From the NCBI GenBank assembly GCA_943333505.2, contig CALQTN020000018.1:1-64000 (forward strand): a DNA stretch of 64,000 nucleotides, in the 5' to 3' direction. Shown here piece by piece: positions 35,583-59,082 of this stretch; within the stretch, counting starts at the first letter, position 1, and every line of letters begins with the position of its first letter. Under the pieces are notes generated by a model that was not told where the DNA came from, did not search any database, and saw nothing but the letters and a program-made list of their open reading frames with translations. The DNA is from Asaia bogorensis (lineage in GTDB: Bacteria; Pseudomonadota; Alphaproteobacteria; Acetobacterales; Acetobacteraceae). Position numbers and translations under genes: made by a program.

Positions 35583-35689
35583 TTAGAGCGTGATGACCGT
35601 AGGTGGAATCACACGAAGGTCTGAATCACGCGACTAAACAAAGAACTAGAGCGTGATGGTCGCGCCTATCAGCGGCCATCACGCTCTAG
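35583..35689. repeat. Two joined CTAG-bordered repeat modules
   Basis: Module 1 (about 35583-35649) begins TAGAGCGTGATGACCGTAGG and continues AATCACACGAAGGTCTGAAT; its inverted counterpart is at 52913-52967. Module 2 (35646-35689) is a palindrome with 14-bp arms CTAGAGCGTGATGG and CCATCACGCTCTAG around a 16-bp loop. The modules share the CTAG at 35646. Located between the convergent crotonase and GNAT genes. Confidence 0.82.
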
Positions 35690-54907: not shown

Positions 54908-55016
54908 AGACTAGAACGCGATCACCGAAGGCGTGAAGCATGCGATCAGACAAACACTTCTGGCGCATGCTGTCCGCTGGGCCTTCCAGCGGACAGCTAC
55001 GCAGAGGCCGCTCTGC
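54908..55016. repeat. Repeat fragment followed by two strong hairpins
   Basis: CTAGAACGCGATCACC and AAGCATGCGATCAGAC are decayed CTAG-type repeat pieces. Then comes a perfect 12-bp stem (GCTGTCCGCTGG, 54969-54980; CCAGCGGACAGC, 54986-54997; loop GCCTT) and a 6-bp stem (GCAGAG/CTCTGC, 55001-55016). Neither is followed by a T-run, so they are not ordinary intrinsic terminators. Confidence 0.7.
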
Positions 55017-55132
55017 CTCAGTTCTTTGCGTTGCCCCCCGCACCCGGATCGAGCCGCATCACCGAATCTGATTCGCTGCGTAGCTCGATACAAGCTAAGA
55101 GCACGCAACTGCACTATTGTATGAGGGCGCAA

Positions 55133-56272
55133 ATGGCTTCCGAACATCACACGACCGGACTGCAACTGCATTCGCTGGTGAAATCCACCGGCACGCTCGA
55201 ACTTTCGCTGGCCGAAATCGCAACGGCGGCGCCTGGCGCGGACGATGTGGTGATCCGCATTGAAGCATCGCCGATCAACCCGTCCGATCTCGGGCTGCTG
55301 CTGGGCGCTGCCGACATGAGCACCGCAATTGTGACCGGAACCGCCGCCCGCCCAGTGCTGACCGCGGCAATCCCGCCGGCCCTGATGCGGGCGATGGCTG
55401 GCCGGGCTGACGAAAGCATGCCGGTTGGCAATGAAGGTGCGGGCATCGTGGTCGCTGCCGGCGCCAACGCCCAGGCATTGCTCGGCAAGATGGTCGCGGT
55501 GTTCGGCGGCGCGATGTATGCGCAATATCGGGTGATGCCGGCCGCCCAATGCCTGGTGCTGCCGGAAGGCACCACCGCGGCCGAAGGCGCGTCCTGCTTC
55601 GTCAACCCGCTGACCGCGCTCGGCATGGTCGGCACCATGCGGCGTGAAGGTCATACCGCGCTGGTGCACACTGCGGCCGCCTCGAACCTTGGCCAGATGC
55701 TCAACAAGATCTGCCTCGAAGACGGCGTCGCCCTGGTGAACATCGTCCGCAGTGCCGAACAGGAAGCCCTGCTGCGCGGCATTGGCGCAGTCCATGTCTG
55801 CAATTCCAGCCTGCCGAGCTTCATGGATGACCTGATCAAGGCGCTGATCGCCACCGGCGCCACCTTGGCCTTCGACGCAACCGGCGGCGGTAAACTCGCC
55901 GGGCAGATCCTGACCGGCATGGAAGCGGCAGCCAATGCGACCGCCAAAACCTATAGCCGCTACGGTTCGACCACCCATAAGCAGGTCTATATCTATGGCG
56001 GCCTCAATACTGCGCCGACCGAGTTCACCCGTGGCTTCGGGATGGCCTGGGGCATTGGCGGCTGGCTGCTGATGCCATACCTCGCCAAGGTCGGGCAGGC
56101 CGAGGTCGCCAAGATGTATGCCCGCGTGGTCGCCGGGCTGAAGACGACCTTCGCCAGCCATTACACAGGCGAATTGTCCCTGGCCGAAACACTGCAACTG
56201 GACAAGATTGCCATCTATAACCGGCGCGCGACCGGGGAGAAGTTCCTGATCTGCCCGAACAAGGGCGTCTGA
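55133..56272 (+). CDS. Zinc-type alcohol dehydrogenase/quinone oxidoreductase-like protein
   Basis: A 379-residue medium-chain dehydrogenase-like protein. N-terminal GroES-like domain with VIRIEASPINPSDLGLLLGA and VGNEGAGIVVAAGANAQALL; nucleotide-binding part with ALVHTAAASNLGQMLNKICL and DATGGGKLAGQIL. No catalytic zinc ligands (GHE-type) are seen, so it probably reduces quinones or alpha,beta-unsaturated carbonyls with NADPH. ATG 55133 has GAGGG a few bases upstream; ATG 55121 is an alternative. Confidence 0.85.
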   Translation: MASEHHTTGLQLHSLVKSTGTLELSLAEIATAAPGADDVVIRIEASPINPSDLGLLLGAADMSTAIVTGTAARPVLTAAIPPALMRAMAGRADESMPVGNEGAGIVVAAGANAQALLGKMVAVFGGAMYAQYRVMPAAQCLVLPEGTTAAEGASCFVNPLTALGMVGTMRREGHTALVHTAAASNLGQMLNKICLEDGVALVNIVRSAEQEALLRGIGAVHVCNSSLPSFMDDLIKALIATGATLAFDATGGGKLAGQILTGMEAAANATAKTYSRYGSTTHKQVYIYGGLNTAPTEFTRGFGMAWGIGGWLLMPYLAKVGQAEVAKMYARVVAGLKTTFASHYTGELSLAETLQLDKIAIYNRRATGEKFLICPNKGV

Positions 56273-56288
56273 TCTTCTCGACATGGCG

Positions 56289-56324
56289 CCTCATCTGACT
56301 AGGTATAATCCTAGTCAGATGAGG
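56289..56324. promoter_or_regulatory. 36-bp perfect palindrome containing the antitoxin promoter -10 box
   Basis: Arms CCTCATCTGACTAGG (56289-56303) and CCTAGTCAGATGAGG (56310-56324) are exact inverted copies of 15 bp around TATAAT (56304-56309), a consensus -10 hexamer. The right arm also carries the GAGG ribosome binding site for the ATG at 56334. A -35-like TCGACA is at about 56278 (20-bp spacing). This is the layout expected for an autoregulated toxin-antitoxin operon. Confidence 0.88.
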
Positions 56325-56333
56325 TTCGGTCTC

Positions 56334-56591
56334 ATGAACGCCTGGTCGGTCCAAGACGCCAAAGCCCGCTTCAGCGAGTTTCTCGACACCTGCATCGCCG
56401 AAGGCCCGCAGATTGTCACCAAGCGTGGTGCGGCTGCGGCCGTACTGGTACCGCTCGCGGAGTGGGAGCGGCTGCAGCGTGTGGCGCGGCCGAGCCTGAA
56501 GGAATTGCTGCTCGCGCCAAGTCCGCGCAGCGATCTTGATCTGCCAGCACGCGGCGGCTTGCGGCGTCGCGCGCCGGAGCCATTGGGCTAG
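56334..56591 (+). CDS. Phd/YefM-family antitoxin
   Basis: An 85-residue antitoxin. The N-terminal DNA-binding/dimer domain reads NAWSVQDAKARFSEFLDTCI and GPQIVTKRGAAAAVLVPLAEWE, the standard PhdYeFM pattern; the C-terminal tail (SDLDLPARGGLRRRAPEPLG) should wrap the toxin. The ATG at 56334 is preferred; ATG 56319 lies in the operator. It should repress its own promoter through the 36-bp palindrome. The toxin gene follows after six bases but is frameshifted. Confidence 0.9.
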   Translation: MNAWSVQDAKARFSEFLDTCIAEGPQIVTKRGAAAAVLVPLAEWERLQRVARPSLKELLLAPSPRSDLDLPARGGLRRRAPEPLG

Positions 56592-56597
56592 CGCCGC

Positions 56598-57009
56598 GTG
56601 TACCTCCTCGATACCAACGTCATTTCCGCGTTACGCAAAACCCGTCCGCATGGCGCGGTGCTTGCCTGGATCGGTGGCGTTGCGGATGCCGATTTGTATA
56701 TCTCGGCCGTGACCGTCGGCGAAATCGAGGCGGGGATCGAGATGACCCGCACCCAGGACAAGGTCAAAGCGGCAGGCATTGAAGCATGGCTCGACCAAGT
56801 CGCCGCGACCTACAATATCCTGCCGATGGATGCGCGCCGTTCGCGTCTGGGCGCGGTTGATGTATCGGCAATCCGACCAACTCCTGGAAGACGCAATGAT
56901 CGCGGCCACGGCGACGGTGCATAACCTCGTGGTGGTAACCCGCAATATCCGCGATTTCGACCTGCTTGGCGCGAAATGCCTGGATCCGTTTATCCCGCCG
57001 ACCAACTGA
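56598..57009 (+). pseudogene. vapC: VapC-type PIN-domain toxin with a frameshift
   Basis: The GTG at 56598 opens a PIN-domain frame with LLDTNVISALRKTRP (D5) and VGEIEAGIEM (E42) that runs to a stop near 56924 with nonsense after PMDARR. The missing half is in another frame from about 56830: RVWARLMYRQSDQLLEDAMI and AATATVHNLVVVTRNIRDFD, holding the last two metal-binding acidic sites. Joining the frames near 56830-56845 (a one-base loss) gives a normal VapC of about 137 residues. As it stands the ribonuclease site is incomplete. The antitoxin is intact. Confidence 0.85.
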
Positions 57010-57574
57010 TCGGGCGCAAATCTTTCGGCAAATAGAGCGGATGCACCGGGACACCGTGCTTGGACAAGCGGAGCACAGAAAGCTTCGTGCCGGCTGCACG
57101 AAGCGCGGTGCACACGGCCTCGGCATGCATCTGCAACCCTTTCGGCAATTGCCCATGGGCGATCACCGTGACATCGGCCTCGCTCGCCATTCCGATGATC
57201 GCCGCGATATTACCCGGCCCAACCGGATCATCCACGCCAAGCAACACTGTCTTGTCGGTGGCGCGATAGGCACAGACATTGCCGACATAAAGCCGCCCGT
57301 AACCCCAGTCCCGCACGAAACCCATGCAGCGCGCCACCGTCGGATCGTTGACCTGCTCATCGGCGGTGCTGGGGTTCATCATCACAAACAGTGCCGATGG
57401 CAGCCCAGCATCCCAAGTCCGTGACAACGTAAACCGATAGCGCCGGCAATCCGAAAACCGTGCCACTGACACCACATCGGCCGCCACGTTAAGCCTTACT
57501 TTGCCGCCGGGATCATGATCTTGCATGCGCAGGTGATGGCCGATTGCCATCCGCCGCGCAAGCATGGGGTTCAC
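56990..57574 (-). CDS. DUF1643 family protein
   Basis: A 194-residue protein of DUF1643, with YRFTLSRTWDAGLPSALFVM, MNPSTADEQVNDPTVARC, FVRDWGYGRLYVGNVCAYRA and a late VLRLSKHGVPVHPLYLPKD. Function unknown; members occur scattered on chromosomes and phages. Its 3' end overlaps the end of the vapC remnant by 20 bp on the opposite strand. The start is uncertain: ATG 57550 or 57526 would shorten the N-tail, which carries little conserved sequence. Confidence 0.78.
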   Translation of the reverse strand: MNPMLARRMAIGHHLRMQDHDPGGKVRLNVAADVVSVARFSDCRRYRFTLSRTWDAGLPSALFVMMNPSTADEQVNDPTVARCMGFVRDWGYGRLYVGNVCAYRATDKTVLLGVDDPVGPGNIAAIIGMASEADVTVIAHGQLPKGLQMHAEAVCTALRAAGTKLSVLRLSKHGVPVHPLYLPKDLRPISWSAG

Positions 57575-57623
57575 TCATTCAATCGGCTTCGAATGGACGG
57601 ATAAAGCTGATAGTGAAAGCAAG
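57573..57623. repeat. Diverged copy of the 64-bp hairpin unit
   Basis: CTCATTCAATCGGCTTCGAA, TGGACGGATAAAGCTGATAG and TGAAAGCAAG. It is degenerate compared with 16049-16240, and the AP-rich coding stub at 57579 ends inside it. Confidence 0.78.
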
Positions 57624-57794
57624 CCCCCAAAGCCGCCGGCCGCGCGGGCCTTCGGCTTCAAGGGCGCGCGCCTGCGCGCGAAATTCACCGTCCGGCACGC
57701 GGCTGATCCAGATCGCCGGATCAACCGCGGCACGATTCGCGGCCAGTGCCGTTTGGGCGGATAGCAACGGGCCTGGGTATTTTTTGCCATTCAT
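57579..57794 (-). pseudogene. N-terminal remnant of an allophanate hydrolase/amidase-like gene
   Basis: The 71-codon frame carries AAVDPAIWISRVPDGEFRAQ, ARALEAEGPRGRRLWGLAF, which matches the N-terminal part of allophanate hydrolases and related amidases (…DPAIWI…, EGP…LWGLPFAVKDN). After LWGLAF the reading frame enters the hairpin repeat and ends TISFIRPFEAD. The expected amidase core is absent, so the repeat marks the break. Identification is by memory of the family; the fragment is short. Confidence 0.55.
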
Positions 57795-57808
57795 ACTCAG
57801 GCGTTAGC

Positions 57809-57842
57809 GCGTGATGACCGCGCCTATCAGCGGTCATCACGC
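57809..57842. repeat. Palindromic repeat (GTGATGACC type)
   Basis: GCGTGATGACCG and CGGTCATCACGC are exact inverted halves around CGCCTATCAG. Related to 35646-35689 and 3255-3285. It lies 22 bp after the binding-protein stop and may also work as a terminator-like hairpin. Confidence 0.78.
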
Positions 57843-57864
57843 TCGTGGCAAGCATTATGCCATG

Positions 57865-59082
57865 TCAGGCCTTGATGAGTGACCCGAACAATACCCAGCT
57901 CGCCCCATCCCAACGCTGCAACTGCAACTGCGTCATCGGATTGTGCTGGGTCGGGCTGGTGTTGATCTTGATCCCGGGCAGCCAGACCGGCACTTCGAGG
58001 TCATGGATCGCATTGGCCTGGCGCATCATGTTTTCCCGCGACAGATCATTGCCGCATTGCTTGAGCACCTGGTGCATCATCGCCGCCCAGCCGAATCCGG
58101 TGAGGTAGGCGGCATCGCCGGCTTCCGAGCCCGGCAGGTATTTCGCCATGAAGGCGCGGTAGATATTCATCCCTGCATCGGCCTTCCAGGTCGGGTCGTT
58201 GGGGTCCTTGAAATAGGCGGCGCTGAGCAGGCCGACCGCCTTTTCTACGCCGGCCGGCTTCAACACCGCCGAAACCGAGATTGCGACATTGGCGAGGAAA
58301 TGCATCGGGTGCCAGTCGAGGTCATGGATCTTGCGGATGATCTGGGCGGCGAATTTTGGCGTCACCGCACTCAGCAGGACATCGGCGCCAGAGCCTTTCA
58401 TCGTCACCGCCTGACTGTCGATGGTCGGGTCGGTCACTTCGTACGACACTGACGACACCACCATCTTGTCGAAGCGGGCGCCAAGCCCGTCTTTCAGCCC
58501 GGTGATGTAATCCTTGCCGAGATCGTCATTCTGCCAAAGGATCGCGATCTTGGCATTGGGTTTATGCTCGAGGATATATTTGGCATAAATTGCCCCCTCG
58601 ACCCGGTAGCTCGGCGGGCCGGCCATGCATAGCGGCAATTCGACATGGTTGCCCCAACGGCTGGCGCCGCTGGAAATGAACAGGTTCGGCACGCCTTTGG
58701 CATGGAGATATTTGACGATTGCCGCGTTCGGCGCGGTGCCGAGTGATGCGAAAATCGCCGAAACCTCGTCCTGCTCGACCAACCTGCGGGTCATTTCGAC
58801 GGTTTTGGCTGGCGCGTAGCCATCATCGAGCGAGATCAGGTTGATCTTGCGACCGTTCACTCCACCTGCATCATTGACCATCTGGAAATAGGCGAGTTCG
58901 GCACGGCCGACCGCGCCGTAGGCCGAGGCTGGGCCGCTATAGGGCTGGGTCTGGCCGAGCTTGATCTCGGTATCGGTGATGCCCTTCGGCTGGGCGCGCA
59001 GCACTGCGGGCATGGCAAGTGTGGCGGCGGTCGCGCCGAGCAAGGTACGGCGGTTGATCGGCAAATGTCTTGAATTGGTCAT
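57865..59082 (-). CDS. Branched-chain amino acid/amide-type ABC substrate-binding protein (LivK-like)
   Basis: A 405-residue periplasmic protein with a twin-arginine-type signal (INRRTLLGATAATLAMPAVL, cleaved after RAQ) and a type I binding fold: ITDTEIKLGQTQPYSGPASA, VNGRKINLISLDDGYAP and IAILWQNDDLGKDYITGLKD. It probably serves an ABC importer for an amino acid, amide or aromatic acid; no permease genes are next to it. 170 bp separate it from phaC. Confidence 0.86.
   Translation of the reverse strand: MTNSRHLPINRRTLLGATAATLAMPAVLRAQPKGITDTEIKLGQTQPYSGPASAYGAVGRAELAYFQMVNDAGGVNGRKINLISLDDGYAPAKTVEMTRRLVEQDEVSAIFASLGTAPNAAIVKYLHAKGVPNLFISSGASRWGNHVELPLCMAGPPSYRVEGAIYAKYILEHKPNAKIAILWQNDDLGKDYITGLKDGLGARFDKMVVSSVSYEVTDPTIDSQAVTMKGSGADVLLSAVTPKFAAQIIRKIHDLDWHPMHFLANVAISVSAVLKPAGVEKAVGLLSAAYFKDPNDPTWKADAGMNIYRAFMAKYLPGSEAGDAAYLTGFGWAAMMHQVLKQCGNDLSRENMMRQANAIHDLEVPVWLPGIKINTSPTQHNPMTQLQLQRWDGASWVLFGSLIKA

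Follow-up and report, generated by a model that had tools for sequence, protein, structure and literature searches.

Genes and features at the locus

Within the 64,000-nucleotide stretch of Asaia bogorensis DNA analysed here (the window), a conspicuous inverted repeat lies between an alcohol dehydrogenase/quinone oxidoreductase-like gene, which stands outside the toxin-antitoxin (TA) system, and a gene for an antitoxin of the Phd/YefM family (Table 1). The antitoxin call, which agrees with the preliminary description of this DNA, is based on matches to PF02604 (57.6 bits; cutoff 29.8) and TIGR01552 (48.8 bits; cutoff 20.8), and its PDB relative 2odk_A is recovered with an E value of 2.4e-32. 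A PIN/VapC toxin gene begins 6 nt past the antitoxin stop codon, and an intact PIN toxin directly downstream of the antitoxin was not found in this assembly, where the gene is split over two frames. The first part scores 31.5 bits against PF01850 (cutoff 23.6) and the second part 20.7 bits, which is below the cutoff. Four genus-level loci (L003, L004, L032 and L086) carry the toxin intact as a single frame of 137 amino acids; the frameshift may reflect decay or a sequencing or assembly error. L032 and L086 have an identical operator window and an identical toxin match, and may represent one organism. A scan of the genome's contigs with the antitoxin returned one locus, and four of the five searched genomes of the genus, that of the window included, contain the antitoxin gene. 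By descent, the locus belongs to the Phd/YefM-PIN toxin-antitoxin family.

Table 1. Positions of the genes and sequence elements at the locus, in window coordinates
Feature	Position	Strand	Details
Alcohol dehydrogenase/quinone oxidoreductase-like gene	55031..56272	+	Co-directional; ends 16 bp before left arm
TCGACA, degenerate -35-like hexamer	56278..56283	+	20 bp before TATAAT
Left arm of inverted repeat	56289-56303	+	CCTCATCTGACTAGG; conserved core TGACTAGG at 56296-56303, aligned with relatives
CTAG tetramer of left box	56299-56302		
TAGGTA over left box	56300..56305	+	Probable -10 position of the family (putative); TAGTTA in many relatives
TATAAT, spacer	56304-56309	+	Equals -10 consensus
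Right arm of inverted repeat	56310-56324	+	CCTAGTCAGATGAGG; conserved core CCTAGTCA at 56310-56317
CTAG tetramer of right box	56311-56314		
GAGG, Shine-Dalgarno-like	56321-56324	+	In GATGAGG, outer part of right arm; 9 nt before ATG 56334
Phd/YefM-family antitoxin gene	56334..56591	+	85 aa; PF02604, TIGR01552
PIN/VapC toxin gene, broken	56598..57009	+	Reading frame changes near residue 83 of the 137-aa relative

The two arms are complementary at 15 of 15 positions, with 6 nt between them. The preliminary description had presented the whole as a perfect palindrome of 36 bp with TATAAT at its centre and a ribosome binding site in the right arm. The TATAAT is exact, the GAGG is present in the right arm and the arms are indeed perfect, but the symmetry does not run through the six central bases: the reverse complement of TATAAT is ATTATA, such that only the middle TA pairs and 32 of the 36 positions are symmetric. 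No other inverted repeat in the window has arms of at least 15 bp and a loop of at most 20 nt, and 300 length-matched first-order Markov sequences yielded one repeat of this kind; a smaller set of 10 such sequences also contained one. Searching for the same palindrome near other genes found no second copy of the strict repeat pattern at 0 mismatches in the 4.5-Mb, 151-contig assembly, the next best matches to the operator core having 3 mismatches each. Two further inverted repeats were recorded in the window. One (57809-57842; 13-bp perfect arms, 8-nt loop) lies just downstream of a minus-strand open reading frame (57865-59082) and is possibly its terminator, and the other (35646-35689) has 14-bp perfect arms and a 16-nt loop.

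A two-box core shared among homologous loci

The regions upstream of homologous antitoxin genes were compared in 80 loci, comprising a first set of 63 (among them the window's own, L002) and 17 further loci, with 22 more distant loci (L010-L031) kept apart. Each site was scored as the best match, out of 16, to TGACTAGT-N6-ACTAGTCA in the 150 nt preceding the antitoxin gene. A score of at least 12/16 was reached in 58 of the 80 loci (46/63 plus 12/17), compared with 1 of 1080 control segments taken from the same 63 loci. The consensus was first read off part of the family, and the 17 later loci thus give the cleaner count. In 15 of the 80 homologues, no site of at least 11/16 is present in the 150 nt upstream. 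When spacers from 2 to 10 were allowed, 59 loci reached at least 12/16 at some spacing, and in 57 of these no other spacer did better than 6. From the end of the site to the start codon the median distance is 16 nt, and 58 of 63 distinct sites fall in the range 8-27 nt. Like most sites of the family, that in the window adjoins the translation start.

These counts, with the preferred spacer of 6 and the fixed position before the start codon, show that the conserved element is smaller than the 36-bp extent and consists of two ACTAGT-like boxes whose centres lie 12 bp from each other. The boxes in the window read ACTAGG and CCTAGT; they depart from ACTAGT at the inner base, and each falls one base short of a hexamer palindrome. 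The suggestion that the whole 36 bp acts as operator is not borne out by this comparison, in which no other lineage shares the outer arms. The proposal of toxin-antitoxin autoregulation through the site, by contrast, is one that the conservation argues for strongly.

The more distant Phd-PIN subfamily (L010-L031), which comes from the same bacterial family, has another palindrome, TGACTACnGTAGTCA, in the 60 nt that precede the antitoxin start. It is matched at 12/14 or better in 9 of these 22 loci, and exactly in L012 and L031. Many antitoxins of this subfamily carry QLRDAKA near the start, and the half-site of TGACTACnGTAGTCA has TGACTA in common with the operator studied here.

Position of the promoter

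TATAAT occurs five times in the window when both strands are counted, and so its presence alone says little. It forms the operator centre in only 1 of 63 distinct sites, namely that in the window; TATCTG (12) and TATATG (6) are the centres seen most often. No sigma-70-type pair of -35 and -10 elements passed a promoter scan of the window, and no -35 hexamer stands 16-18 bp from TATAAT. In place of the degenerate TCGACA, L003 and L004 have TTGACA, whereas L032 and L086 have TTTACA; in L003 this conserved hexamer lies 21 bp from the centre of the site. Its distance to the position of TAGGTA is 16 bp in the window and 17 bp in L003.

Across the family, 18 of the 63 sites have TTG, with which a -35 hexamer begins, at offset -19 (the background has a mean of 1.25 and a maximum of 4), and with a spacer of 17 bp the -10 element would fall on TAGTTA, over the left box. 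This -35 signal thus points to a -10 element over the left box, although with reduced certainty because TAGTTA is a poor match to TATAAT. A second arrangement, TAnnnT beginning one base ahead of the site, is likewise seen in 18 of the 63 sites. The assignment of TATAAT as the -10 box of this strain is accordingly one that we regard as doubtful. Since both -10 candidates lie under the operator, repression by occlusion would hold for either.

Symmetry of the outer arms

Counted outward from the dyad, symmetry is perfect to 18 bases in the window, 14 in L032 and L086, 12 in L003 and 5 in L004; these four relatives have the boxes and lack the perfect outer arms. A wider analysis of outer symmetry dropped the sites below 11/16 (15 of 80) and then near-duplicates, which took the first set from 52 to 48 sites and the combined set from 65 to 56. 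At positions 13-16 of the 48 nonredundant sites, 74 of 192 cells are symmetric against 53.7 expected (sd 5.7), and none of 2000 permutations was as high when right sides were shuffled among sites, a procedure that does not keep relatedness. Sliding the axis by -4 gave 67 symmetric cells in this set, and the remaining slides gave 38-55. The range d13-16 was picked after the first set had been viewed and was then applied again to new loci, where 13 new sites gave 24 of 52 symmetric cells against 14.4 (sd 3.0), with 5 of 2000 permutations as high. In the combined 56 flank-nonredundant sites there are 89 Watson-Crick matches in 224 cells against 60.3 (sd 6.3; 0 of 3000 as high), and G-T pairs show no rise (32 against 35.0 expected).

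Long arms are rare among these sites. The longest symmetric run in d12-26 is 1-2 bases in 39 of the 56 sites, and contiguous symmetric bases in this range number 7 in the window, 10 in L041 and 14 in L093. Long palindromes surround the same core in L041 and L093, and the arm sequences are lineage-specific and unrelated between lineages. The striking perfection of the site and its central TATAAT are thus local to this strain, whether by accident or by recent mutation.

Because the long perfect arms are unrelated in sequence and confined to isolated lineages, they suggest template-switch mutation more than a conserved need. A protein assembly that is itself symmetric could produce an outer-symmetry excess of this sort in milder form. 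Quasipalindromes in Escherichia coli are described as growing more perfect via template switching (PMC7202029). The site of this strain has become more perfect than those of its relatives, with symmetric substitutions beside the spacer and with outer arms that match. In the most economical account, a template switch would have replaced one arm of a pre-existing imperfect palindrome by a copy of the other. The single lineage here cannot separate template switching from selection for symmetry. The broader proposition, that operators of this family repeatedly gain long, perfect, lineage-specific arms, with the conserved imperfect palindrome acting as a template-switch hotspot, is one that we put forward as a rather unlikely conjecture.

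Relation to known operators

Like the operon described here, VapBC and FitAB have a PIN-domain toxin, and FitAB is said to have been crystallised on a 36-bp repeat. In layout the site resembles the operators of YefM-YoeB and Axe-Txe, which are paired TGTACA hexamer palindromes 12 bp apart centre to centre that overlap the promoter (PMC7730913, PMC3920265). They share with the present site a Phd/YefM-family antitoxin, two hexamer boxes 12 bp apart and a position just before the antitoxin gene. They differ in that the core here is ACTAGT-like (ACTAGG/CCTAGT), the toxin is a PIN protein rather than YoeB or Txe, and the outer arms form one large dyad.

Other TA systems also have features in common with this one. 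VapBC complexes bind operator inverted repeats (PMC3920265, PMC4803016), whereas several of these VapBC and FitAB examples have antitoxins of a type other than Phd/YefM (PMC4803016). In phd-doc of phage P1, which has an antitoxin of the same superfamily, autorepression employs the toxin as co-repressor (PMC4803016); its toxin, however, belongs to the Doc family, and the likeness concerns proteins and regulation rather than operator sequence. In region I of kis-kid (parD), too, the -10 region of the TA promoter lies under a perfect palindrome (PMC4803016), a likeness drawn by description and not by sequence, and its antitoxin is of another family.

Our literature search, which covered journals outside subscription and in which primers and aptamers also match, noticed no published operator with an ACTAGT-like core, and this is no proof of absence.

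Alternative explanations

In the version given by the preliminary description, the central TATAAT is the true -10 box and the entire 36 bp is a selected operator. The exact TATAAT combined with GAGG in the right arm speaks for it, as does the TA-rich operator centre in much of the family. We nevertheless find this version doubtful, if deserving of some weight, given that the TATAAT centre is unique to the window, that the nearest -35 candidate is too far away (20 bp here, 21 bp from the centre in L003) and that relatives in the genus do without the outer arms. A quite different possibility is that the repeat acts as RNA, with read-through transcripts from the upstream gene burying the ribosome-binding site in a hairpin and antitoxin being made only from an own-promoter transcript that starts past the left arm. 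The predicted fold of 56270-56345 is strong (-34.5 kcal/mol, z -5.45); the GAGG-bearing right arm is fully paired in the fold of 56260-56380, the long hairpin is gone in transcripts from 56310 or 56316, and the upstream gene runs in the same direction and ends close to the arm. However, any strong DNA palindrome folds as RNA, most relatives lack the long arms, and the outer-arm excess is confined to Watson-Crick pairs, all of which makes this an improbable explanation. A scan of 55000-58000 yielded no known RNA family at gathering score.

A strong hairpin right after the dehydrogenase stop codon also raises the idea of an intrinsic terminator for that gene, but no T run follows the hairpin, the terminator scan did not report it, and the core accompanies the antitoxin where a different gene lies upstream, as in plasmid loci. 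This candidate was rejected for want of a T run and of a terminator-scan report, and we consider it very improbable. Even less weight, indeed practically none, goes to a mobile or interspersed repeat (a REP-like element or a MITE end), for which only the palindromic shape can be cited, whereas the position is fixed relative to the antitoxin start; a dispersed repeat or a regulon was rejected on the strength of the single copy in this assembly.

Proposed mechanism and implications

We assign a probability of roughly 0.85 to the reading that the palindrome is the autoregulatory operator of an operon for a Phd/YefM antitoxin and a PIN (VapC-type) toxin, with two ACTAGT-like boxes and repression by occlusion. 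Autoregulation by the antitoxin or by an antitoxin-toxin complex is, on comparative grounds, a well supported prediction. From the site, its conservation, its spacing and its position, we infer how protein binding, stoichiometry and repression would proceed. Each ACTAGT-like box would receive one antitoxin dimer, and the toxin, when present, would bridge the two dimers. The bound complex would lie over the -10/start region of the operon's promoter and extend as far as the ribosome-binding site, thus blocking RNA polymerase, and degradation of the antitoxin would derepress the operon. A single dimer over the whole site, as had been proposed, seems unlikely, in that two boxes 12 bp apart would fit two antitoxin dimers as in YefM-YoeB. 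Because the toxin partner is broken in the assembly, toxin-dependent cooperativity may be lost in this strain.

This TA operator is ordinary in kind: a known type of switch, with the spacing of YefM and another core. The eye-catching perfection of the site is not what was conserved; it is the two-box motif that can be put to further use. TGACTAGT-N6-ACTAGTCA offers a testable operator motif for the Phd/YefM-PIN family, which was found here in several classes of Pseudomonadota. If the hotspot conjecture were true, a mutation process would keep re-symmetrising the antitoxin's operator and could shift the strength of repression one step at a time. Should the template-switch reading prove right, TA operators would lend themselves to the observation of this kind of mutation.
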